Shown: positions 329 through 11,770 of the stretch, piece after piece | Layout: each line of letters begins with the position of its first letter | How positions within the stretch are numbered: the first letter of the stretch is position 1 | NCBI GenBank assembly: GCA_003693905.1 | Contig: RFLL01000077.1 | Span: forward strand, 1 to 12,779 | DNA: 12,779 bases | Reading direction: 5' to 3' | Origin: Alphaproteobacteria bacterium | GTDB taxonomy: Bacteria; Pseudomonadota; Alphaproteobacteria; Kiloniellales; J153 | Made by a program: the position numbers and the translations under genes | Notes under the pieces: generated by a model | Seen by the model: only the letters and a program-made list of their open reading frames with translations | Told to the model about the DNA's origin: nothing | The model's database searches: none

Positions 329-517
329 ATGACCGACCACAACCAGGGTTCGGCCGCGGAAACCGGACATGGGCCGGGAGACGAGGGACCGGTGCCGATC
401 ATGCAACGGGTGCTCGACAACCCGTTTCTGCTGCTCTTCCTAGGCGTCACCATTCCGACGGTCCTCTATCTCATCTGGGGGATCATGGAGGTGGCCCAGA
501 TTCCGATTGCCGAATAA
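329..517 (+). CDS. Small single-helix subunit of the heme-copper reductase (IIa-like)
   Basis: A 62-residue protein with a hydrophilic N-terminus rich in Gly and acidic residues (about 1-24), one transmembrane helix (about 33-52, FLLLFLGVTIPTVLYLIWGI) and a short tail. A longer open frame extends upstream, but the ATG at 329 has a good ribosome binding site (GGAGG, about 318-322) and gives the compact product expected. Tiny one-helix subunits precede or accompany subunit II in ba3-type and related oxidases, such as subunit IIa of Thermus ba3. Its place 15 bases before the CuA subunit supports the same role here. There is no catalytic motif. It probably stabilises the complex, but sequence alone cannot prove membership. 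Confidence 0.7.
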   Translation: MTDHNQGSAAETGHGPGDEGPVPIMQRVLDNPFLLLFLGVTIPTVLYLIWGIMEVAQIPIAE

Positions 518-532
518 CGCTGCGAGGACGCC

Positions 533-1072
533 ATGGCGATTACACCGCCCACCGACCGCCTGTGGTGGAAGGAACCCCTGAGCAAGACGGAGATCACCTG
601 GATCTCGATTGCGTTTGCGTGGTCCATCATCATGTTCCTCGCCATGATCTACTGGCATATGACGGGGGAACAGAACCTTTCCAATGAAGCGTACCGGATC
701 AAGCCGGAAGTCTTTGCCGCCAAGGCCGAGGCCATGGTCGAGCAGTATCAGGTCGGCGAAGAGGGCGACACTGGCGTGCCGGTCGTTCATCCGCCGCCGG
801 GCAGCGACGTCTATCTGATCGCGCGACTGTGGGAATGGTGGCCGGTTCTGGAGCTGGAAAAGGGCCAGAGCTACCGCCTGCACCTGTCATCCATGGACTG
901 GCAGCACGGCTTCTCGCTGCAACCGACCAACATCAACATACAGGTCCATCCCGGCTACGAGATGGTCCTGACCATCACGCCGAACGAGGCCGGCGAATTC
1001 GGCGTCGTCTGTAACGAGTACTGCGGCATCGGCCACCACACGATGGTGGGCAAGATCCGCGTTGTCGAATAA
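533..1072 (+). CDS. CuA-containing subunit II of a heme-copper NO reductase/oxidase (NorS-like)
   Basis: This 179-residue protein has one N-terminal membrane helix (about 21-41) and a periplasmic cupredoxin domain. The dinuclear CuA site is complete: H125 in DWQHGFSL, then C160-x3-C164-x3-H168-x2-M171 (CNEYCGIGHHTM). A single helix and a short domain are typical of ba3-like subunit II and not of the two-helix mitochondrial type. CuA means electrons enter from a soluble periplasmic donor, such as cytochrome c or a cupredoxin; no CxxCH cytochrome c is encoded in this window. A GAGGA ribosome binding site sits at 524-528, and the next gene follows after 16 bases. With the Tyr-less subunit I beside it, it fits NorS of sNOR clusters; an automatic annotation would call it cytochrome c oxidase subunit II. 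Confidence 0.9.
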   Translation: MAITPPTDRLWWKEPLSKTEITWISIAFAWSIIMFLAMIYWHMTGEQNLSNEAYRIKPEVFAAKAEAMVEQYQVGEEGDTGVPVVHPPPGSDVYLIARLWEWWPVLELEKGQSYRLHLSSMDWQHGFSLQPTNINIQVHPGYEMVLTITPNEAGEFGVVCNEYCGIGHHTMVGKIRVVE

Positions 1073-1088
1073 GCCATAGGGGGCGACG

Positions 1089-2783
1089 ATGGCTGGTACC
1101 TTCGCATCTCGGATCTGCCCGGATACCGGGCTGCGCGTCGATCGCAACGCCGAGGCGCTCATCAAGGCCAACGCCGTGGTGGCGGTCGTGTTTCTCGCCA
1201 TCGGCGGGCTGTTCGGCCTGATGGTCGCACTGACGCGCTGGCCGGGCGTTCACCTGCTGCCGGACGATCTGTTCTATCTGGTGCTGACGGCGCACGGCGC
1301 CGACGTGCTTCTGTTCTGGATCATCTTCTTCGAGGTCGCGATTCTTTATTTCGCTTCGGCCATCCTGCTGAACTCGCGACTGGCGACACCGCGACTTGGC
1401 TGGCTCGCCTTCGTCCTCATGCTGATCGGCGCGATCATGGCCAACGTGGCCGTCCTTCAGGGTGAATCGAGCGTGATGTTCACCTCCTACGTGCCGATGA
1501 AGGCGGCGCCGCATTTCTATCTCGGCCTGATCCTGTTTGCCGTCGGCACGCTGATCGCCTGTTTCATCTTCTTCGGTACGCTGGTGGTGGCGCGGGCCGA
1601 GAAAACCTATGAAGGTTCGATCCCGCTGGTCACCTTCGGTGCGTTGACGGCGGCGATCATCGCCGTGTTCACCCTGGCCTCGGGCGCGATCATTCTGATC
1701 CCCACGTTCCTGTGGTCGATCGGCCTGATCAGCAACATAGATCCGGTGATGTACAAGGTGATCTGGTGGGGCATGGGGCATTCGTCGCAGCAGATCAACG
1801 TGTCGGCCCATGTCGCGGTATGGTACGCGATCGCCGCCATGCTGCTGGGTGCCAAACCGCTGTCGGAAAAGGTCAGCCGCACGGCGTTCCTGCTTTATAT
1901 CCTGTTCCTGCAACTTGCCTCGGCGCACCATCTGCTGGTCGAGCCCGGCATCAGCTCATCGTGGAAGATCTTCAATACCAGTTACGCCATCTATCTGGCG
2001 GTACTGGGCAGCATGATCCACGGCATGAGCGTCCCCGGCGCGATCGAGGCGGCACAGCGTCGGCGCGGCTTTACCCGTGGTGCGTTCGAATGGCTGCGCA
2101 AGGCGCCGTGGGGGAACCCGGCGTTTTCCGGCATGGCGCTGTCGTTCGTCATGTTCGGCTTCCTGGGCGGCATTTCGGGGGTCGTCCTCGGCACCGAGCA
2201 GCTCAACCTGCTCATGCACAACACGCTGTACGTTCCCGGACATTTCCATGCCACCGTGGTTGCCGGCACGACACTGGCGTTCATGGCGATCACCTATCTC
2301 GTCATTCCGCTCATCTTCCGGCGCGACGTCATTCTGCCCACGGTCGCAAAGTTGCAGCCCTATGTATTCGGAATCGGGGTCGGCGGCATCTCGCTGTTCA
2401 TGATGGGCGCCGGAACGCTCGGGGTGGCGCGACGTCATTGGGACATCACGTTCTCGGATGCGACGATGACGTTCGACTACCCCGGCACCGCGTTCCTGAT
2501 GATGGGGTTGAACGGCGTATTCGCGCTGCTGGCCGCGCTCGGCGGGCTGATGTACGTCGTCGTCGTCGTCGGCTCGATCCTGTTCGGCAAGCGGCGTGAC
2601 GAAACTGCGGCGAAGGAACGGCCCGTGGTTGCGCTTGGCGGCGGAGCCGTTGCCGCCTATGGCAGCGAAGGGACCATCAAGCTGCCGGGGACGATCACCC
2701 TGGTCGCCGTCTTCTTCACGGTGTTCGTTCTCTACTACTTCGTGAACTGGAAGTTCCTGTCCGAGGTCTGGCCGCTCAGCTAG
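1089..2783 (+). CDS. Heme-copper subunit I lacking the active-site Tyr, probable NO reductase (NorY-like)
   Basis: A 564-residue polytopic protein with the six metal-ligand histidines of the heme-copper superfamily. H69 (LTAHGAD) is a low-spin heme ligand, H231 starts the CuB/FeB site, H280-H281 is the paired His motif, and H385-x-H387 (VPGHFHATV) holds the high- and low-spin hemes. The HNTLYVPGHFH block resembles B-type (ba3) oxidases. After H231 the usual HPxVY is replaced by HSSQQ, so Q235 stands where the His-cross-linked Tyr should be. Loss of that Tyr is a hallmark of NO-reducing members, and with CuA and SenC neighbours it points to sNOR/NorY. O2 reduction cannot be excluded from sequence. 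AGGGGG at 1078-1083 is the ribosome binding site. Length is normal for B-type subunit I. Confidence 0.88.
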   Translation: MAGTFASRICPDTGLRVDRNAEALIKANAVVAVVFLAIGGLFGLMVALTRWPGVHLLPDDLFYLVLTAHGADVLLFWIIFFEVAILYFASAILLNSRLATPRLGWLAFVLMLIGAIMANVAVLQGESSVMFTSYVPMKAAPHFYLGLILFAVGTLIACFIFFGTLVVARAEKTYEGSIPLVTFGALTAAIIAVFTLASGAIILIPTFLWSIGLISNIDPVMYKVIWWGMGHSSQQINVSAHVAVWYAIAAMLLGAKPLSEKVSRTAFLLYILFLQLASAHHLLVEPGISSSWKIFNTSYAIYLAVLGSMIHGMSVPGAIEAAQRRRGFTRGAFEWLRKAPWGNPAFSGMALSFVMFGFLGGISGVVLGTEQLNLLMHNTLYVPGHFHATVVAGTTLAFMAITYLVIPLIFRRDVILPTVAKLQPYVFGIGVGGISLFMMGAGTLGVARRHWDITFSDATMTFDYPGTAFLMMGLNGVFALLAALGGLMYVVVVVGSILFGKRRDETAAKERPVVALGGGAVAAYGSEGTIKLPGTITLVAVFFTVFVLYYFVNWKFLSEVWPLS

Positions 2784-2820: not shown

Positions 2821-3687
2821 ATGACGGCCGTCATCGGACAGGTGTGGTGCGTGTTCAAGATGCGCATTGCCGTGGCGATCATGTTGAGCGCCCTGGCCGG
2901 GTTGGCCGTCATGCCGGGCCCGGCCCTGTCGGCGTGGCAGGTGGCGGTTCTGGCGCTTTCGGTGCTGCTGTCGGCGGCCAGCGCCGGTGCCTTCAACCAG
3001 TTCATCGAACGTGACCTCGACCGTCGCATGGCGCGCACCGCCGGGCGCCCGTTCGCCAGCGGCGCGTGGCGTGCAGGGCCACTCTGGCTGTCGGTCATCC
3101 TCGCTCTACTGGCGGCTGCCGTCGCGGCGGCGGCGTGGGTTCTCAACGGCTGGGTCGCGCTTCACGTCTTTCTCGGCGCCTTCGTCTATGGCGTCGTCTA
3201 TACGGTGTGGCTGAAGCGGCGCACGTGGCTCAACATCGTGCTCGGCGGCTTGGCCGGCAGCTTTGCCGTGCTGGCCGGGGCCGCCGCCGTCGATCCTGCT
3301 CTGGCGCCGGCGCCGATCATTCTGGCGGTGGTTCTGTTTCTGTGGACGCCGCCGCATTTCTGGAGCCTGGCCACGGTACTGCGGGCCGATTATGCCCGCG
3401 CCGGGGTGCCGATGCTGCCGGTGGTGATCGGCGACGGACCGGCGGCGTGGGTGATCCTGGCCCATGCCGTCGCTCTGGTCGCGTTGTCGTTGATGCCCGT
3501 CGCCTTCGGCATGGGGTGGATCTATTTCGTTGCCGCGGCGCTTGGCGGGGCTTGGTTTGTCCATCGCAGCATCTGCCTGGTGCGGGCTCCGGATGCACGG
3601 ACGGCGATGACGAACTTCTTTGCCTCTCTGATACAGCTCGGCGCGCTGTTGAGCGGAGCCATCGCCGATCGCCTCATCCTCGGGTAG
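2821..3687 (+). CDS. ctaB: Protoheme IX farnesyltransferase (heme O synthase)
   Basis: A 288-residue UbiA-superfamily prenyltransferase that converts heme B and farnesyl diphosphate to heme O in the inner membrane. The first prenyl-diphosphate motif is N59QFIERDLDRRM (N59, E63, D67). The second conserved block is WTPPHFWSLA...DYARAGVPMLPV at about 175-201, diagnostic of CtaB/CyoE. About eight or nine hydrophobic helices are visible. The start ATG at 2821 follows AAGGGAG at a good distance. It lies 37 bases after subunit I, so the operon supplies a modified heme for its own terminal enzyme. No heme A synthase (ctaA) is present in the window; either the enzyme uses heme O or ctaA lies elsewhere. 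Confidence 0.93.
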   Translation: MTAVIGQVWCVFKMRIAVAIMLSALAGLAVMPGPALSAWQVAVLALSVLLSAASAGAFNQFIERDLDRRMARTAGRPFASGAWRAGPLWLSVILALLAAAVAAAAWVLNGWVALHVFLGAFVYGVVYTVWLKRRTWLNIVLGGLAGSFAVLAGAAAVDPALAPAPIILAVVLFLWTPPHFWSLATVLRADYARAGVPMLPVVIGDGPAAWVILAHAVALVALSLMPVAFGMGWIYFVAAALGGAWFVHRSICLVRAPDARTAMTNFFASLIQLGALLSGAIADRLILG

Positions 3688-3688
3688 C

Positions 3689-4558
3689 GTGCGAACTCTG
3701 ATAACGGGACGATTGATGCGACGGGTCGGTGCTGCGATTGCAGGAACCTTGATGCTGCTTGCTCCCGCCTTCGCGGTGGCGCAGGCGGGCAGCGGCAGTG
3801 TGCCCTCCCCGTACGATCCCGAAGCCGCATTGAACTACAGCCAGAAGGCGATCGGCACCGTCATCGGCGATTACGCGTTTCGTGACAGGCGCGGGCGCGA
3901 GGTGCGTCTGTCGACGTACCGTGGCCGGCCGCTGGTCATCAATTTCGTCTATACCGCGTGCACCGACGTATGCCCGCTGATCGTGCAGACCCTGGCCCGT
4001 GCCGTGGAGACGGCACAGGATGCGCTCGGGCGTGACAGCTTTGCGGTGGTCACGATCGGTTTCGATGCCGCACATGATACGCCGAAGCGGATGCGCGCCT
4101 ATGCCCGCTCCCAGGGTATCGATCTGCCCAACTGGACCTTTCTCAGCACCGATGAAGATACGGCCCGTGCCCTGGCCGAGGATATCGGGTTCATCTACTA
4201 TCCCTCTCCCAAGGGCTTCGATCACCTGGCACAGGTCAGCGTGATCGATGCCGACGGGCGGGTCGCAGCCCAGGTCTATGGCGATACCTTCGAGCCGCCG
4301 GCCCTGGTCGAGCCGTTGAAGAGCCTTCTGCTGCGCCGGCAGCTTGCGCGACCGACACTGGACGGACTGATCGAGCGCGTGCGTCTGTTCTGCACGCTGT
4401 ATGACCCCGCGACGGGGCGCTACCGGTTCGACTATTCGCTGTTTGTCGGCTTGACCATCGGCGCCGGCAGCCTGCTGACGGTCGGGTTCATTCTGGTGCG
4501 CGCGCTTCTGCGCCAGCGCCGCATGGAGCGTCAACGACGGATGGGGTTGGGCGCCTGA
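3689..4558 (+). CDS. SCO/SenC copper chaperone with an extra C-terminal membrane helix
   Basis: A 289-residue thioredoxin-fold SCO1/SenC protein that delivers copper to the CuA site. The copper ligands are present: C91-x3-C95 (CTDVCP) and H179 (GFDHLAQ). An N-terminal hydrophobic segment (about 13-32, ending AFAVAQA) acts as signal peptide or anchor. A second strong membrane helix lies at about 249-273 with a basic cytoplasmic tail; many SCO proteins have only the N-terminal anchor. The frame allows a GTG start at 3689, one base after the ctaB stop, which suggests translational coupling. An ATG at 3716 (MRRVGAAIAG) is an equally plausible start and gives 280 residues with an intact signal. 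Its position in the operon supports assembly of the CuA subunit encoded at 533-1072. Confidence 0.88.
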   Translation: MRTLITGRLMRRVGAAIAGTLMLLAPAFAVAQAGSGSVPSPYDPEAALNYSQKAIGTVIGDYAFRDRRGREVRLSTYRGRPLVINFVYTACTDVCPLIVQTLARAVETAQDALGRDSFAVVTIGFDAAHDTPKRMRAYARSQGIDLPNWTFLSTDEDTARALAEDIGFIYYPSPKGFDHLAQVSVIDADGRVAAQVYGDTFEPPALVEPLKSLLLRRQLARPTLDGLIERVRLFCTLYDPATGRYRFDYSLFVGLTIGAGSLLTVGFILVRALLRQRRMERQRRMGLGA

Positions 4559-4559
4559 G

Positions 4560-6209
4560 ATGGATACGTTGGCGAGAAGCGAAACCCCGGCCGCACCGCC
4601 ACCGGATGTGCCGGCGCGGATCCAGCGGCCTTTGCGGATCATGTTCGAATACGCCGAAGCCGCGCTCGACCGCGTCTTCGGACCGGCGTGGAATCCGCTC
4701 TACTTTCTCGGGCCGCTCGGCTTCTACTATTACTGGATCGTCGCCGTCAGCGGCATCTACGTCTACATCTTCTTCGATACCGGCACCACCGAGGCCTACC
4801 AGTCGGTCGAGTACATGACCTATCAGCAATGGTACCTCGGCGGCGTCATGCGCAGCCTGCACCGCTACGCCTCCGACGGCATGGTGTTGATGATGGTCGT
4901 GCACATCGCCCGCGAATTCGCGATGGGGCGCTATCGTGGGCCGCGCTGGTTCACCTGGATAACCGGGGTTCCGATATTCTGGCTGGTCATCGCCAGCGGT
5001 ATCACGGGCTACTGGCTGGTATGGGACACGCTGGCCCAGTACATCGCCATCGCCACCACCGAATGGTTCGACTGGCTGGGCATATTCGGTGAACCGATCG
5101 CGCGCAATTTCCTGACGCCGGAAGATCTCGACGACCGCTTCTTCACGCTGCTTCTGTTCATGCACATTGCGGTGCCGCTCATCCTGCTGTTCGTCCTGTG
5201 GATCCATCTGCAGCGGATCAGTCGGCCCAGGTTCAACCCCAACCGCGGTCTGGCCGTCGGTACCTTCGTCATGCTGCTGGCGCTGGCGTTCGTTCACCCG
5301 GCCGAAAGCCAGGAACCGGCGAACCTGAGCGTTGTCCCCGGGACGCTCGACATCGACTGGTACTATCTGGCCATCTATCCGTTCATGGACGCGACCTCCT
5401 ATGGCGCCGGATGGGGCTTTGCGGTGGCGGCCAGTCTGATGCTGTTCGTCCTGCCGTGGTTGCCGCCGCTGAAACAGCCGGCCGCGGCGGCGGTCGATCT
5501 GTCCAACTGCAACGGCTGCACACGTTGCGCCGAAGACTGCCCTTACAATGCCATCACCATGATGCCGCGCAGCGACGGCCTGCCGTTCGATCACGAGGCG
5601 CAGGTCGATCCGGACTTGTGCGTACGCTGCGGCATCTGCGCCGGGGCCTGTCCGACGGCGACACCGTTCCGCCGCGCTTCCGACCTCATTCCCGGCATCG
5701 ATCTGCCGCAACGGCCGTTACGGGCGCTGCGTGACGACCTTGCACGCAGGACCGCAAAACTGGACGGGCCAGCACGCATCGTCGTCTTCGGCTGCGATCA
5801 CGGTGTGCGGGTGGCGGATATCGAAGGCCCGGGCATCGCGGCCTTCAGTCTGCCCTGCATCGCGGCGCTGCCACCGTCGTTCATCGACTACGTGCTCAGC
5901 CGCGATCTTGCCGACGGAGTGGTGCTGACCGGGTGCCGTGAAGGCGAATGCTACAACCGTTTCGGGGTGATGTGGACGAAGATGCGCCTGGCGGGCGAGC
6001 GCGATCCGTACCTGCGTAAGCGCGTTCCGCGGGAGCGGTTGCTGACCTATTGGGGTGGAACGCTCGACCGGCGCGGGTTGTCCAATGCGGTGGCGGCGTT
6101 CGCTGCGCGCATCGCGGCGTTGCCACGTTTCGACCCGCTCCGGCCCGGCGCCTCGGCGCGTGCGAATGCACGTCCCGATGCCGCCGCACCGAGCGAGACG
6201 GTGGACTGA
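4560..6209 (+). CDS. Cytochrome b / 2x[4Fe-4S] ferredoxin / MvhD-like fusion protein
   Basis: A 549-residue three-part fusion. Part 1 (about 20-300) is a cytochrome b6/b-type membrane domain with two bis-His heme pairs, H101-x13-H115 and H202-x13-H216, and about six helices. Part 2 (about 310-370) is a dicluster ferredoxin: C317-x2-C320-x2-C323-x3-C327-P and C354-x2-C357-x2-C360-x3-C364-P. Part 3 (about 404-490) resembles the delta subunit of F420-non-reducing hydrogenase (MvhD/FrhD). It has four Cys (C412, C433, C459, C464) in GCDHG, LPCIAALP and TGCREGEC, expected to bind [2Fe-2S]. The chain would connect a cytoplasmic low-potential donor with the membrane hemes. It starts one base after the SCO stop, so it belongs to the reductase operon. 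The partner supplying electrons is not in the window; the direction of electron flow is unknown. Confidence 0.9.
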   Translation: MDTLARSETPAAPPPDVPARIQRPLRIMFEYAEAALDRVFGPAWNPLYFLGPLGFYYYWIVAVSGIYVYIFFDTGTTEAYQSVEYMTYQQWYLGGVMRSLHRYASDGMVLMMVVHIAREFAMGRYRGPRWFTWITGVPIFWLVIASGITGYWLVWDTLAQYIAIATTEWFDWLGIFGEPIARNFLTPEDLDDRFFTLLLFMHIAVPLILLFVLWIHLQRISRPRFNPNRGLAVGTFVMLLALAFVHPAESQEPANLSVVPGTLDIDWYYLAIYPFMDATSYGAGWGFAVAASLMLFVLPWLPPLKQPAAAAVDLSNCNGCTRCAEDCPYNAITMMPRSDGLPFDHEAQVDPDLCVRCGICAGACPTATPFRRASDLIPGIDLPQRPLRALRDDLARRTAKLDGPARIVVFGCDHGVRVADIEGPGIAAFSLPCIAALPPSFIDYVLSRDLADGVVLTGCREGECYNRFGVMWTKMRLAGERDPYLRKRVPRERLLTYWGGTLDRRGLSNAVAAFAARIAALPRFDPLRPGASARANARPDAAAPSETVD

Positions 6210-6212
6210 GAG

Positions 6213-6716
6213 ATGACGCGGGCAGTCGCCTATATCGGCCAGGTGATCGTTTATGCGGCCATTGCGGCGCTGCTTGGCGGTTTTGCCACGTGGCCGCGCC
6301 ACACGCACTTTCCCGACGATCAGGCGCTGATCAAGCTCAGCTTTGCACACAGCGCCAAGCACAAGGTCGCCTGTCGCAAACGCACGGCCAAGGAGCTGTC
6401 CAAGCTCGCCCCCAACATGCGCCGGACCCTGTCGTGCTCGCGCGAGAGAGTACCGGTCTATCTCGAACTCGACTTTGACGGCGCGCCGCTGTTCCGCGGT
6501 ACGTTTGCGCCCTCGGGTCTGTCGCGCGACGGGCCGGCGCAGGTCTATGAACGCTTTGTCGTACCTGTCGGCCGTCGTCATGTCGTTGTGCGCATGCGCG
6601 ACAGCACCCGCAGCGAGGGGTTCGACTACGAGGCGCAGGCGACGCTGGACCTGCCGCCGCGGCGCAACCTGGTGATCGGGTTCCGCCCCGAGATGGGAGG
6701 TTTCTTCTTCAAATGA
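6213..6716 (+). CDS. Single-pass envelope protein of unknown function in the reductase operon
   Basis: A 167-residue protein starting three bases after the fusion gene and therefore co-transcribed with it. One N-terminal hydrophobic helix (about 4-26, VAYIGQVIVYAAIAALLGGF) is followed by a basic, soluble and probably periplasmic domain without further membrane segments. Two cysteines (C54, C75) and a group of histidines (H30, H32, H46, H50) lie in the first half. C54 and C75 could form a disulfide or, with the histidines, bind a metal; this is speculation. The second half looks beta-rich (FVVPVGRRHVVVRMRD, LVIGFRPEM). I do not recognise the family. Context suggests an assembly or accessory subunit; it may correspond to the orf that accompanies norSY-senC clusters. 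The frame ends inside a 15-base tandem duplication. Confidence 0.75.
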   Translation: MTRAVAYIGQVIVYAAIAALLGGFATWPRHTHFPDDQALIKLSFAHSAKHKVACRKRTAKELSKLAPNMRRTLSCSRERVPVYLELDFDGAPLFRGTFAPSGLSRDGPAQVYERFVVPVGRRHVVVRMRDSTRSEGFDYEAQATLDLPPRRNLVIGFRPEMGGFFFK

Positions 6717-6737: not shown

Positions 6738-6777
6738 CGGCCCGCAGCACGTGCCGGTCGTCGACCGGGAGGTGGCA

Positions 6778-7194
6778 ATGGCATTGATCGAATGGCGCCC
6801 GGAGTTCGAGATCGGCATTCCTGCCGTCGATCACGAGCACCGCGAATTGATCGGACTGATCAACCGTCTGTACGATACCTTGTCGGCAACGTCGGATGCG
6901 GCCGAGATCGAGGCATTCCTGGGCGAGATCTATGCCCGCATCTCGGCTCATTTCGCCCTCGAAGAGCGCACCATGCGGGATCTGCGCTACGACGAGTACG
7001 ACGCCCACAAGGCCGACCACGAACGCCTGCTCGATGAGATCCGCGATATCATGGAGACCTACCAGGCCGGGGCCTACCGTGATCTCGAACGCGATCTCGG
7101 CGGCACGCTGGAGCACTGGTTCACCGAACATTTCCGCATCAAGGACGCGCGCCTGCACAAGTTCCTGGCGGCCCGCGGCGCCGGCGCGGCGTAA
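6778..7194 (+). CDS. Bacteriohemerythrin (single-domain, O2/NO-binding diiron protein)
   Basis: A 138-residue hemerythrin of normal single-domain length with all seven diiron ligands: H21 (DHEH), H58 and E62 (SAHFALEE), H77 and H81 (YDAHKADH), H118 and D123 (EHFRIKD). It opens with the typical W-x3-F-x-IGIP-x2-D block. Hemerythrins reversibly bind O2 and some react with NO, so it could deliver oxygen, sense it, or detoxify. The frame is open further upstream, with a GTG at 6751. The ATG at 6778 has a strong ribosome binding site (GGGAGG, 6767-6772) and starts exactly at the conserved domain, so I chose it. The gene lies 61 bases after the preceding operon gene and may be transcribed by read-through. 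No signal peptide is seen, so it is cytoplasmic. Confidence 0.92.
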   Translation: MALIEWRPEFEIGIPAVDHEHRELIGLINRLYDTLSATSDAAEIEAFLGEIYARISAHFALEERTMRDLRYDEYDAHKADHERLLDEIRDIMETYQAGAYRDLERDLGGTLEHWFTEHFRIKDARLHKFLAARGAGAA

Positions 7195-7305: not shown

Positions 7306-7351
7306 TGCTATCATGACCTGTGGGAGCCGAAAGAAAAAAAGGCGTCCAGGC

Positions 7352-8119
7352 ATGGCGGAGCAGGATGCGGAACGATTCCGGCGCAGAACCGGTCTCAATG
7401 AAGAGGATTACCGGATGCTTGCCCGGTTGCCGCTGTTTGCCGGTTTCTCCCGGTCCGACATCCGCTCTCTGCTTGCCGATGCCTGGGTGCAGCGCTTTCC
7501 GCGCAACGCCGTCCTGTTCCTGGAGCAGGAACCCGCAACCCGTTTTTTCGTCGTGTTCGAAGGGTGGGTGAAGCTGTTCCGCGAGACCGAGGCCGGTCAG
7601 GAAAGCGTCATCGGCGTCTTTGCGCCGGGTGAATCGTTCGCCGAGGCGGCGGTCTTCGATTCCGGCGACTATCCGGTCAGCGCGATGACGGTCGAAGATT
7701 CGCGCCTGCTCGTCATACCGGCCGACAGCTTCATTCGCAAATTGCGCGAGAATGCGGATTACGCCCTCAACGTCATGGCCTCGGTGTCGCGCCACATGCG
7801 CCGGCTGGTACAGCAGGTCGAGCGCCTGTCGGTGAAATCGTCGACCGAACGGGTGGCGGAATTTCTGCTTCGTCTGGCCGCGACCGAGGATGGGCCGGTG
7901 GAAATCCGCCTTCCCCTCGACAAATCCCTGATCGCGCGCCGGCTCGGCATGCAGCCGGAAACCTTCTCCCGCTCGCTGGCACGGTTGCGCGCGCTTGGCG
8001 TGGCGACCAGCGGTGCCCGGGTGACCATCGCCGATATCGGAGCCCTGAAGAGGCTCGGTGCCGAAACTGCGTCGCCGTGCGCTCCGGCCTCGCCGACCGG
8101 GCGCCGTGCTCAGGGATGA
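7352..8119 (+). CDS. Crp/Fnr-family transcriptional regulator, DNR/NnrR-like
   Basis: A 255-residue protein with an N-terminal cyclic-nucleotide-binding-type beta-roll (about 22-130), the dimerisation helix (about 134-163) and a C-terminal winged helix (about 168-230). The recognition helix reads PETFSRSLARL, with E203, S206 and R207. These are the positions that contact TTGA half-sites in FNR-type proteins, as opposed to the RE-x2-GR pattern of CRP. The only cysteine is C243 near the end, so there is no FNR-type iron-sulfur cluster. This leaves a DNR/NnrR-like, heme- or NO-responsive type as the best guess. The frame is open far upstream, but the ATG at 7352 follows AAAAAGGCG and matches the family length. 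Two suitable TTGAC boxes lie in this window at 212 and 8807. The ligand is not provable from sequence. Confidence 0.9.
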   Translation: MAEQDAERFRRRTGLNEEDYRMLARLPLFAGFSRSDIRSLLADAWVQRFPRNAVLFLEQEPATRFFVVFEGWVKLFRETEAGQESVIGVFAPGESFAEAAVFDSGDYPVSAMTVEDSRLLVIPADSFIRKLRENADYALNVMASVSRHMRRLVQQVERLSVKSSTERVAEFLLRLAATEDGPVEIRLPLDKSLIARRLGMQPETFSRSLARLRALGVATSGARVTIADIGALKRLGAETASPCAPASPTGRRAQG

Positions 8120-8179: not shown

Positions 8180-8770
8180 TCAGGCCGGGAATGAAATGCC
8201 GCGCCGCGTGGCCATGGTCTGACCCAGGCTCCACAGGTCTGCGTTGCCGAGTCGCCGCCGCGCCAGTGGCAGTAGCAGCCGGTTCTGCCACGCGATCGTG
8301 GCCCGTACGGCGGCGACCAGGGTCTCGGCCTTTGCTGCAAAGGTGCCCGGATCGGGCAGCCGGCGACGCACGGCCAGCGTTTCCAGCCCCGTCTGTACGG
8401 CCGTCGCCGTTTCCCGGATCGCGGCGTGTTCGCGGCGCAGGCGCGCAAGCAGTAACGGCACGCCGTCCTCCTCGCGGGCGCAGGCGAGAAGGCGCGTTCC
8501 CAGCGCCTCTTCCTCGTCGTTCATGTGATGGACGAGATCGCTTTCCAGAAAGTGCGCGATTTTCTCGGCCCGGGCCGGTGTTCCCGCCGCGTGCGGGGCG
8601 GTCACGATGGCGCTCAACGCCTCGCTGACGAGCGTCTGTCGGTAGTGGTCGGTCAGCAGCAGATCGACGGGTACGCGGAACAGATTTTCGGGTAGGGGCT
8701 CAAGCTTGGCGAGCGCCTCGGCACTGCCTGATGCCGTCGGCGTTTTCCGGCTGCGCGTGCTCGTGGGCAT
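8180..8770 (-). CDS. Hemerythrin-like HHE-domain protein with incomplete metal ligands
   Basis: A 196-residue, mostly helical cytoplasmic protein. Hemerythrin/HHE features are H42 (TDHYRQ), H81-H82 with E86-E88 (LVHHMNDEEEAL), H115 (RREHAAI) and the C-terminal block W161QNRLLLPLARRRL. In the HHE proteins I know, the last block usually carries a His and a Glu (as in HI-x-WEN-x-LLPLA). Here these positions read T and Q, so one iron site may be weakened or lost. The start is the ATG at 8770; a TTG further upstream would add 22 residues without a ribosome binding site. It is convergent with the Crp/Fnr gene. The FNR/DNR-type box at 8807-8820 is centred only 43 bases before the ATG, which fits control by nitrosative or low-oxygen signals. 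Confidence 0.78.
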   Translation of the reverse strand: MPTSTRSRKTPTASGSAEALAKLEPLPENLFRVPVDLLLTDHYRQTLVSEALSAIVTAPHAAGTPARAEKIAHFLESDLVHHMNDEEEALGTRLLACAREEDGVPLLLARLRREHAAIRETATAVQTGLETLAVRRRLPDPGTFAAKAETLVAAVRATIAWQNRLLLPLARRRLGNADLWSLGQTMATRRGISFPA

Positions 8771-8806
8771 GAAAATGACTCTGCCGCGGGAGCGGCCGTA
8801 TCCGCC

Positions 8807-8820
8807 TTGACGATGATCAA
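8807..8820. promoter_or_regulatory. Second FNR/DNR-type box, upstream of the HHE gene
   Basis: TTGACGATGATCAA has the form TTGAC-N4-ATCAA, a full match to FNR-family sites and with the same TTGAC half-site as the operon box at 212. Its centre (8813.5) lies 43 bases before the HHE ATG on the minus strand. Binding at -41.5 would place the transcription start at the ATG or only one or two bases before it, giving a very short leader. The other neighbour, folB, is 270 bases away and less likely to be the target. Confidence 0.7.
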
Positions 8821-8996
8821 CCGAATGTGGGGGCAACCGGGGCCGGGGCGGTCGCGAGCCTCACCTTTGTGCATGGTGGATGTGCCCTGCCTGAAGCGCA
8901 GCAACGGGGGAGCGAACCGGTCGCGGTGTCGCCGGATCGCCCCAGAGGCGGCGCGCACGGGCCGGAACCCGCCATCCGTAGTTCGTGTGCGATGAA

Positions 8997-9090: not shown

Positions 9091-9504
9091 GTGGAACAAG
9101 GAGCGCTGGCGACGCGGCTGGTGACGGCGCGCCCGGAAGACGACGTCCGCCACCTGGACCGGATCCTGATCACCGATCTGATTCTGGCGTGCCGAATCGG
9201 GGTCCATGCCCATGAACGAACGGCGCCGCAGCGGGTGCGCATCAACGTGGCCTTGGAGGTGGTGCCGAACCCGGTCGCTCTTGGCGACGATGTCAGCCGG
9301 GTTGTTTCCTACGAGGATATCATCGCCGGCATCCGTGCGATCATTGCCGAAGGACACATCAATCTAGTCGAGACCCTGGCCGAGCGGATCGCCCGTCTGT
9401 GTCTGGCCGATTCACGGGCCGTACGCGTGCGGGTGCGGGTCGAAAAGCTCGACGTCGAACCGCAGGCCGCGGCCGTCGGGGTCGAGATCGAACGGATGCG
9501 CTGA
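9091..9504 (+). CDS. folB: Dihydroneopterin aldolase
   Basis: A 137-residue protein of the FolB family, which cleaves 7,8-dihydroneopterin to 6-hydroxymethyl-dihydropterin and glycolaldehyde in folate synthesis. The first family block is ILITDLILACRIGVHAHE at 25-42. Y74 (SYEDI), E94 (INLVETLAERIA) and K119 (VEKLDVEP) fall at the spacing of the substrate-binding Glu and catalytic Tyr and Lys of known FolB enzymes. The start is a GTG at 9091 after GGGAAAGGA. The N-terminal 22 residues before the domain are an extension beyond the typical 120 residues. The pterin dehydratase gene follows after 54 bases in the same direction, so the two probably form a small pterin unit. Confidence 0.9.
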   Translation: MEQGALATRLVTARPEDDVRHLDRILITDLILACRIGVHAHERTAPQRVRINVALEVVPNPVALGDDVSRVVSYEDIIAGIRAIIAEGHINLVETLAERIARLCLADSRAVRVRVRVEKLDVEPQAAAVGVEIERMR

Positions 9505-9506
9505 AT

Positions 9507-9539
9507 GCGCCCCATGCCGTGACAAGAGGGCATGTGCGC
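9507..9539 (+). other. Inverted repeat between folB and the pterin dehydratase gene
   Basis: CATGCC (9513-9518) and GGCATG (9529-9534) pair around a ten-base loop. GCGC at 9507-9510 and 9536-9539 can extend the stem past a small internal loop. It starts two bases after the folB stop. It may be an mRNA 3'-end or processing structure; there is no U-run. Confidence 0.35.
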
Positions 9540-9558
9540 TTGAACGGGGCTGGAAGCC

Positions 9559-9939
9559 ATGGAGCGGACCTGGAGCGAGGACGAGGTGACGGCCCGGCTG
9601 GCGCGCGAATTGCCACACTGGCGGCTGAGCGGCGGCCATATCTGTCGGGTCTATCGCACGCACGGCTGGAAGGCGAGCCTGATGGTCGTCAACGCCATCG
9701 GGCATCTGGCCGAAGCCACCTTCCATCATCCTGATATCACGCTGTCCTACGACCGGGTCGAGGTGCGCCTTATGACCCATTCGGCCGCCGGCGTGACCGA
9801 CAAGGATTTCGCTCTCGCCGCCAGGATCGAAGCGCTCATCCAGTGGCAGCCGGGTCGCGAAGGCGGTGCGCTGGAAGGGCCGCGCGGCGATGCGGCCGGT
9901 GCCTACATCAAATACGATCAGGAATCAGGACCGCGTTAG
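9559..9939 (+). CDS. phhB: Pterin-4a-carbinolamine dehydratase (4a-hydroxytetrahydrobiopterin dehydratase)
   Basis: A 126-residue PCD/DCoH-family enzyme that dehydrates 4a-hydroxy-tetrahydropterin in pterin recycling. The signature is complete: E52-x3-H56-H57-P58, Y64, then nine residues to H74, and D81 after it (TFHHPDITLSYDRVEV, THSAAGVTDKD). The family is usually about 95-115 residues, so the tail after residue 97, with GAYIKYDQES, is an extension. The ATG at 9559 follows GGAAG at a suitable distance. No phenylalanine hydroxylase is next to it. It follows folB, and similar PCD-like proteins are also suspected of roles with molybdopterin cofactors, so the substrate may not be biopterin. The downstream neighbour is convergent. 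Confidence 0.88.
   Translation: MERTWSEDEVTARLARELPHWRLSGGHICRVYRTHGWKASLMVVNAIGHLAEATFHHPDITLSYDRVEVRLMTHSAAGVTDKDFALAARIEALIQWQPGREGGALEGPRGDAAGAYIKYDQESGPR

Positions 9940-9988: not shown

Positions 9989-11770
<1,782 letters not shown>

Follow-up and report, generated by a model that had tools for sequence, protein, structure and literature searches.

A conserved cytochrome b/ferredoxin/MvhD protein encoded beside a predicted eNOR-type nitric oxide reductase, with a possible role in electron input

The operon and its three-domain protein

The window, the whole stretch of 12,779 nucleotides analysed here, contains a gene cluster on the forward strand in the order small protein, CuA subunit II, heme-copper subunit I, heme o synthase, SCO, cytochrome b protein, 167-residue protein, hemerythrin and Crp/Fnr regulator. 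As this gene order is repeated in tens of loci, chance or misassembly is ruled out as the origin of the arrangement. Neighbouring genes were counted over 46 mapped loci: 28 from a scan of genome contigs, 13 of 14 later stretches, 3 of 15 further stretches, L125 and the window, with L091 omitted because its contig is identical to that of L046. These loci were chosen for holding the cytochrome b/ferredoxin/MvhD protein, so all counts over the 46 describe a non-random sample.

The first gene (329..517) encodes 62 residues if the ATG at 329 is the start, with one hydrophobic stretch recognised by eye, and was found in 37 of the 46 loci by tblastn with its 335-517 part. Subunit II (533..1072) had no match in a Pfam scan and reached 46.5 bits with TIGR02866 (CoxB), below the cut-off of 147.7; it contains the CuA signature CNEYCGIGHHTM, which is common to its relatives. 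The B-family-like subunit I (1089..2783; PF00115, 223.5 bits) is of the eNOR type, with the Tyr replaced by Gln. It is followed by a CtaB/CyoE heme o synthase (2821..3687; TIGR01473, 244.4 bits, cut-off 210.3) and a SCO/SenC copper-insertion protein (3689..4558; PF02630, 58.1 bits, cut-off 22.8). Beyond the cytochrome b protein (4560..6209) and the 167-residue protein (6213..6716) lie genes for a bacteriohemerythrin (6751..7194; NF033749, 102.6 bits, cut-off 84) and a Crp/Fnr-type regulator (7346..8119; PF00027 and PF13545). A scan for Fnr boxes gave four matches, against 2.13 expected.

The earlier note had proposed that the 549-residue protein at 4560..6209 combines three domains in a single chain, and that its last domain is MvhD-like. 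Both proposals hold, and the last domain is a true MvhD homologue. The cytochrome b domain (residues 30-305, 4647..5474) has six long helices, haem ligands His101/202 and His115/216 and a D266-W267 pair in the last periplasmic loop. Two [4Fe-4S] motifs with eight invariant Cys follow (residues 311-367, 5490..5660; Fer4 models), and then an MvhD/FlpD domain (residues 406-521, 5775..6122). PF02662 matches residues 425-521 of the latter with 31.9 bits, against a gathering score of 22.3. An assignment of this part to some other family was rejected, as its PDB matches are solved MvhD and VhuD structures. The ligand residues are fully conserved: 41 of 41 aligned sequences have the four haem His, the eight cluster Cys and the four Cys of MvhD, one of which sits two columns off in four sequences. 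L007 and L054, two relatives with in-frame stops, were excluded from alignment A1. Haems and Fe-S clusters are thus the probable cofactors, judged by these conserved ligands. The C-terminus is predicted to be cytoplasmic, with a topology read from the charge pattern.

The membrane core resembles the cytochrome b of bc1 and b6f complexes in its fold and helices up to F, in its four bis-His haem ligands and in the invariant Trp of the last periplasmic loop. It differs in its shorter membrane part, in its C-terminal Fe-S domains and in the loop itself, where Asp precedes the Trp in all 41 sequences (xDW), in contrast to the PEWY of the bc1 cytochrome b from the same genome. No Rieske or cytochrome c1/f partner was found among the ten window proteins scanned (Pfam, NCBIfam). 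The best NCBIfam match to the cytochrome b part is to ExtP/ExtQ of a selenite/tellurite operon; however, its 101.5 bits are far below the 290-bit cut-off, and ExtP and ExtQ are separate models.

The MvhD part matches the MvhD, FlpD and VhuD delta subunits over the whole domain, including the four Cys, but unlike them it forms one chain with a membrane cytochrome b. Among the ten window proteins scanned no partner of the hydrogenase, formate dehydrogenase or HdrA kind was recognised, and none was seen by eye in the ORF clusters shared by at least 3 of the 28 scan loci. In QmoABC, which is related to Hdr-like membrane complexes, the MvhD-like domain of QmoB works with the membrane subunit QmoC at the quinone pool (PMC4911364). 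QmoABC consists of three proteins, two of them with FAD sites, whereas the window encodes one chain in which a Pfam scan recognised no FAD domain.

The 167-residue protein directly downstream is predicted to have one N-terminal helix and a beta-sandwich (35-row alignment; model pLDDT 93), and a PDB search with this fold gave no match under E 0.001. It was found in 44 of the 46 mapped loci. In five Calditrichota/KSB1-type genomes (L040, L041, L042, L045 and one more) it is fused to the cytochrome b protein, and in L143 a 703-residue open frame spans matches to both. Such fusion supports physical contact between the two proteins, and the 167-residue protein is likely to be a partner of the cytochrome b protein.

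The neighbouring reductase and its co-occurrence with the protein

The best PDB matches of subunit I are ba3-type oxidases (2.9e-45). At the position of the cross-linked Tyr of ba3 it carries a Gln: GHxxQQ and the helix VII HH pair, with the helix VI His kept, were present in 78 of 78 rows of at least 45% identity, in which some genomes are repeated. The adjoining subunit II gene has the CuA pattern C-x3-C and HHxM. These results uphold the suggestion that the neighbour is a Tyr-less, CuA-type reductase. We considered an ordinary ba3 oxygen reductase and rejected it because the Tyr is absent; a Haloarcula match retains it. An sNOR was rejected as well, since sNOR has Asn at this position (PMC3475470; Table A4 of PMC8756737). 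The same table lists Q for eNOR, N for sNOR and D for gNOR, and eNOR enzymes have been grouped with the B-family (PMC11388526). As the Gln agrees with that table and subunit II has a CuA site, eNOR is the best name for subunit I, with nNOR possible too, and the enzyme is predicted to be an NO reductase. Some caution comes from the literature: the related sNOR has been argued to work possibly as an oxygen reductase (PMC6967387), which may extend by analogy to Gln-type enzymes, and a Tyr-less B-type oxidase with SCO in Magnetospirilli was termed degenerate, its function awaiting study (PMC6431628).

The genomic context fits NO reduction in denitrification. We recognised nirS in the fetched stretch of 15 of the 46 mapped loci and nosR-type genes in 10. 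The window's own genome, which is 59.6% complete, has a nirS-nirF-nosR cluster on a separate contig. Work by Hemp and Gennis and by Murali and colleagues in 2024 is said to treat eNOR as a family of B-type heme-copper NO reductases; a characterised eNOR is that of Rhodothermus. The window's neighbouring enzyme shares with this family the Gln in place of Tyr, the HH pair of helix VII and the CuA subunit II.

At 21 of the 46 mapped loci we observed that the eNOR operon encodes another protein resembling heme-copper subunit I, about 465 residues long (L028:11014-12408 and relatives, among them L022, L023, L024, L026, L033, L034, L035, L041, L042 and L045). It keeps His 69, 216, 347 and 349 and has no conserved helix VII HH pair (11 rows). 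It may be a di-haem protein without CuB. L031 was omitted from this and the other heme-copper conservation lists because of reading frame shifts.

We then compared how often the two genes occur together. The scan of genome contigs gave 29 loci, of which 28 were true relatives (L047 was dropped as a 26-residue ferredoxin match). Subunit I lay inside the fetched stretch in 24 of these 28. The other four (L038, L040, L044 and L046) are on short or cut contigs; subunit I was found elsewhere in two of the assemblies and was absent from those of L040 and L046. Among 385 Alphaproteobacteria genomes the cytochrome b/ferredoxin/MvhD protein was found in 24 and eNOR subunit I (E < 1e-200) in 23, all of them within the 24; subunit I matches of 25-29% identity (G076, G140, G286, G411) were taken as other oxidases and dropped. 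Both genes were on one contig in 22 of the 23, the exception being G333, where the contig ends just past SCO. The second proteobacterial class sampled was the one to which L022 (Nitrosomonadales) belongs: among 321 of its genomes, each gene was found in 27, with 26 shared. In the two genomes that break the pattern, the contig stops directly behind subunit I in one case and within SCO in the other. Outside these classes, the phylum of L041 had the protein in 4 of 40 genomes, and the three checked for subunit I were all positive. The phylum of L043 had an eNOR match in 1 of 82 genomes, which was the starting genome. As each genome was scored for a few first-look candidates only, no more than 3 to 5 in the large samples, weak second copies could be missed in these counts.

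The two genes are also retained together where their order has changed. In G647 a single contig carries both, with some 16 kb between them; in the Acidobacteriota loci L144, L146 and L147 the cytochrome b/ferredoxin/MvhD gene is divergent from the reductase genes. Such co-retention despite rearranged gene order suggests a functional bond.

A split module and eNOR-like genes without the protein

The pairing is not without exceptions. In 297 Acidobacteriota-group genomes we found nine matches past 1e-40. Of these, five carry eNOR within the fetched stretch and one runs into a contig end; the remaining three (L148, L150 and L151) are without it. These three share a different cluster (L151:1380-9926), which encodes a cbb3-like subunit I, a FixO-type subunit with cytochrome c, a cytochrome c, a Rieske protein, a cytochrome b, a small protein, a cytochrome b-ferredoxin protein and a separate MvhD. 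The score of the cbb3-like subunit I does not reach the curated ccoN cut-off. The Rieske protein was identified by weak NCBIfam matches and a CPHLGC...CPCH motif, with no Pfam match. As in the window, cytochrome b-ferredoxin is followed by MvhD, but here MvhD has its own gene and the neighbours are a cbb3-like oxidase, cytochrome c, Rieske protein and second cytochrome b. Judged by sequence, one module thus exists in two forms, fused into the single chain seen in the window or split and accompanied by another kind of oxidase; we know of no published name for the split form. As it accompanies a cbb3-like oxidase in three of the nine Acidobacteriota matches, the module is not tied to NO. The expectation that the architecture stays with NOR-like genes therefore stood for the one-chain form, which lacked eNOR only at contig ends in the two proteobacterial samples, but not for the split form.

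Conversely, eNOR-like genes (GHGAQQ, 47-48% identity) occur in Thermomicrobium roseum and on a Thermus thermophilus plasmid (ten Thermus records matched, of which this one was examined), and no cytochrome b/ferredoxin/MvhD gene was found in their annotated surroundings. The supposed constant pairing with a Tyr-less subunit I thus applies to 23 of 23 and 26 of 27 eNOR genomes in the two proteobacterial classes, but not to these two genes. As they have no such neighbour, the protein is an accessory to eNOR. Among all plasmids, a tblastn search gave a single further record with the protein, a plasmid of Defluviimonas sp. SAOS-178_SWC whose operon has the window's order. The Gln-type gene of the T. 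thermophilus plasmid (L127:6986-8668) is annotated as an oxidase subunit and lies beside Rrf2 and DUF542 genes.

Electron input and its alternatives

Periplasmic cytochrome c is generally taken to be the electron donor of CuA-type NO reductases, eNOR among them. The arrangement described here suggests that eNOR, or the membrane around it, can be fed electrons directly from the cytoplasm. We propose that the protein is a cytoplasm-facing input module of the eNOR-type reductase, passing electrons from a cytoplasmic donor through the b haems to quinone or the reductase, and we give this proposal an even chance. It retains the earlier idea of a path from cytoplasm to membrane as the best-supported reading, with direction and partner as our inference. 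The donor would be a soluble protein of the cytoplasm, probably a flavoprotein or ferredoxin, that docks on the MvhD domain; no donor gene was recognised near the cytochrome b/ferredoxin/MvhD gene. Electrons would then pass from the [2Fe-2S]-type site of MvhD over the two [4Fe-4S] clusters to the b haem on the cytoplasmic side. They may leave at a quinone site, or via the second b haem to the periplasmic side. They could reach the reductase by way of the quinone pool, or by a more direct route if the 167-residue protein, which would be periplasmic, keeps the partners together in a complex. What the genes themselves provide are the ligands, a topology predicted from charge, the co-occurrence, the fusion to the 167-residue protein and an exchange of domains in a paralogue.

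The direction is hinted at most strongly by that paralogue, a second cytochrome b of the same type encoded in the same operon at 15 of the 46 mapped loci, mostly of beta- and gammaproteobacteria (L022:5022-6944, L024:4922-6850 and 13 others). It retains the haem His and the DW loop, and its cytoplasmic part is a plant-type 2Fe-2S, FAD and NAD-binding reductase (Pfam on the L022 copy). Such reductase domains normally accept electrons from NAD(P)H. This suggests that the donor side of such a cytochrome b core is cytoplasmic, and as the paralogue carries an NAD(P)H-type reductase instead, the cytoplasmic part of these cytochromes is swappable. The earlier note had also considered reverse flow to ferredoxin. 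We found nothing that speaks for this direction rather than the forward one, and the paralogue points to feeding from the cytoplasm.

Several observations count against an input module: the PEWY quinol motif of bc1 is altered to xDW, the Thermus and Thermomicrobium eNOR-like genes have no gene for the protein nearby, and some copies have stops. In-frame stops occur in 2 of the 24 alphaproteobacterial copies (G146 and G103) and, in a sample at order level with 14 matching genomes, in G017, while the copy of G031 is frame-shifted; these may reflect assembly error or decay. The window's genome also encodes an ordinary bc1 cytochrome b and Rieske pair, so eNOR could run on cytochrome c without the protein. 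As a separate observation, the cytochrome b gene of one relative is split by a frame shift between two matching pieces (L021:1941-3456 and L013).

The main rival to electron input is maturation or reactivation, because both SCO and CtaB are encoded in the operon, SCO usually just ahead of the cytochrome b protein. The protein would then pass electrons from the cytoplasm across the membrane so that copper or haem sites on the periplasmic side are reduced during eNOR assembly, a role also attributed to CcoG and NosR with other copper enzymes. CtaB lies within the operon in 33 of the 46 mapped loci, SCO is the next recognised gene upstream of the protein in most loci whose gene order was laid out, and neither SCO nor the protein is named in the annotation surrounding the Thermus and Thermomicrobium genes, for which the gene table is incomplete. 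However, SCO precedes the NAD(P)H-type paralogue instead in L022 and L024 and does not adjoin the gene in L144, L146, L147 and G647. The paralogue looks catalytic, SCO queries found no match in the Acidobacteriota cluster with the split module, and CcoG and NosR are not known to be cytochrome b proteins. We therefore regard maturation as doubtful, if worth serious consideration.

A core with the bc1 helices up to F and the invariant Trp in the last periplasmic loop might also bifurcate quinol or work in reverse. A bc1-like site near the periplasm would oxidise quinol, one electron passing to the reductase and the other through the b haems to the clusters, yielding reduced ferredoxin or NAD(P)H. 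The occurrence of the module beside a Rieske protein and a second cytochrome b in the three Acidobacteriota would agree with this, as would the two cytochrome b proteins with different cytoplasmic domains that occur together in 15 of the mapped loci. Nevertheless, bifurcation is unlikely: no Rieske protein is among the ten window proteins, the residue before the Trp is Asp rather than the Glu of PEWY, the organism has an ordinary bc1 pair, and with ubiquinone and a membrane potential the available energy would hardly suffice.

Where both paralogues occur, we speculate, against the probabilities, that they form a heterodimeric cytochrome b complex. An NAD(P)H arm and an arm for a ferredoxin-like carrier would be joined by a quinone site and would exchange electrons between two cytoplasmic pools across the membrane via NO (or O2) reduction, with the window's operon as the one-armed form. 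If true, this would be a new kind of redox-coupling machine.

The earlier note's interpretation is partly supported, and its idea of an undescribed system needs correction in one respect. The domain combination has already been tabulated once, for ORF RME88945.1 with cytochrome b6, ferredoxin-like and FlpD domains, and the parts of that paper available to us contain no functional comment on it (PMC8756737). No account of the function of the architecture was found in the literature searched, the main eNOR paper (PNAS 2024) lying outside that search. What we describe is a conserved and functionally unexplained arrangement of known domains around eNOR, and it marks a cytochrome b lineage that works outside the bc1 and b6f complexes. 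As the module accompanies nearly every eNOR sampled in two proteobacterial classes and its domains are swappable, a different wiring of eNOR is directly testable. Input from the cytoplasm would link NO removal and N2O output to the cytoplasmic redox state.

The hemerythrin genes close by raise one further alternative, in which the protein is an NO or redox sensor, or part of an NO-scavenging side system with the hemerythrins, and not a bulk electron route. The first hemerythrin is present in 17 of the 46 mapped loci, and a second hemerythrin-domain protein is encoded on the reverse strand of the window (8183..8836; PF01814, 38.9 bits, cut-off 25.3). However, the first hemerythrin was not found in the beta/gamma loci L022-L037, where the cytochrome b/ferredoxin/MvhD protein is retained, and full conservation of the ligands fits electron transfer. 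We consider such a role highly improbable. Further along the window, two short folate/pterin-like frames (9091-9939) and, on the reverse strand, a 593-residue frame resembling a GGDEF-EAL signalling protein (9989-11770) were named by eye.
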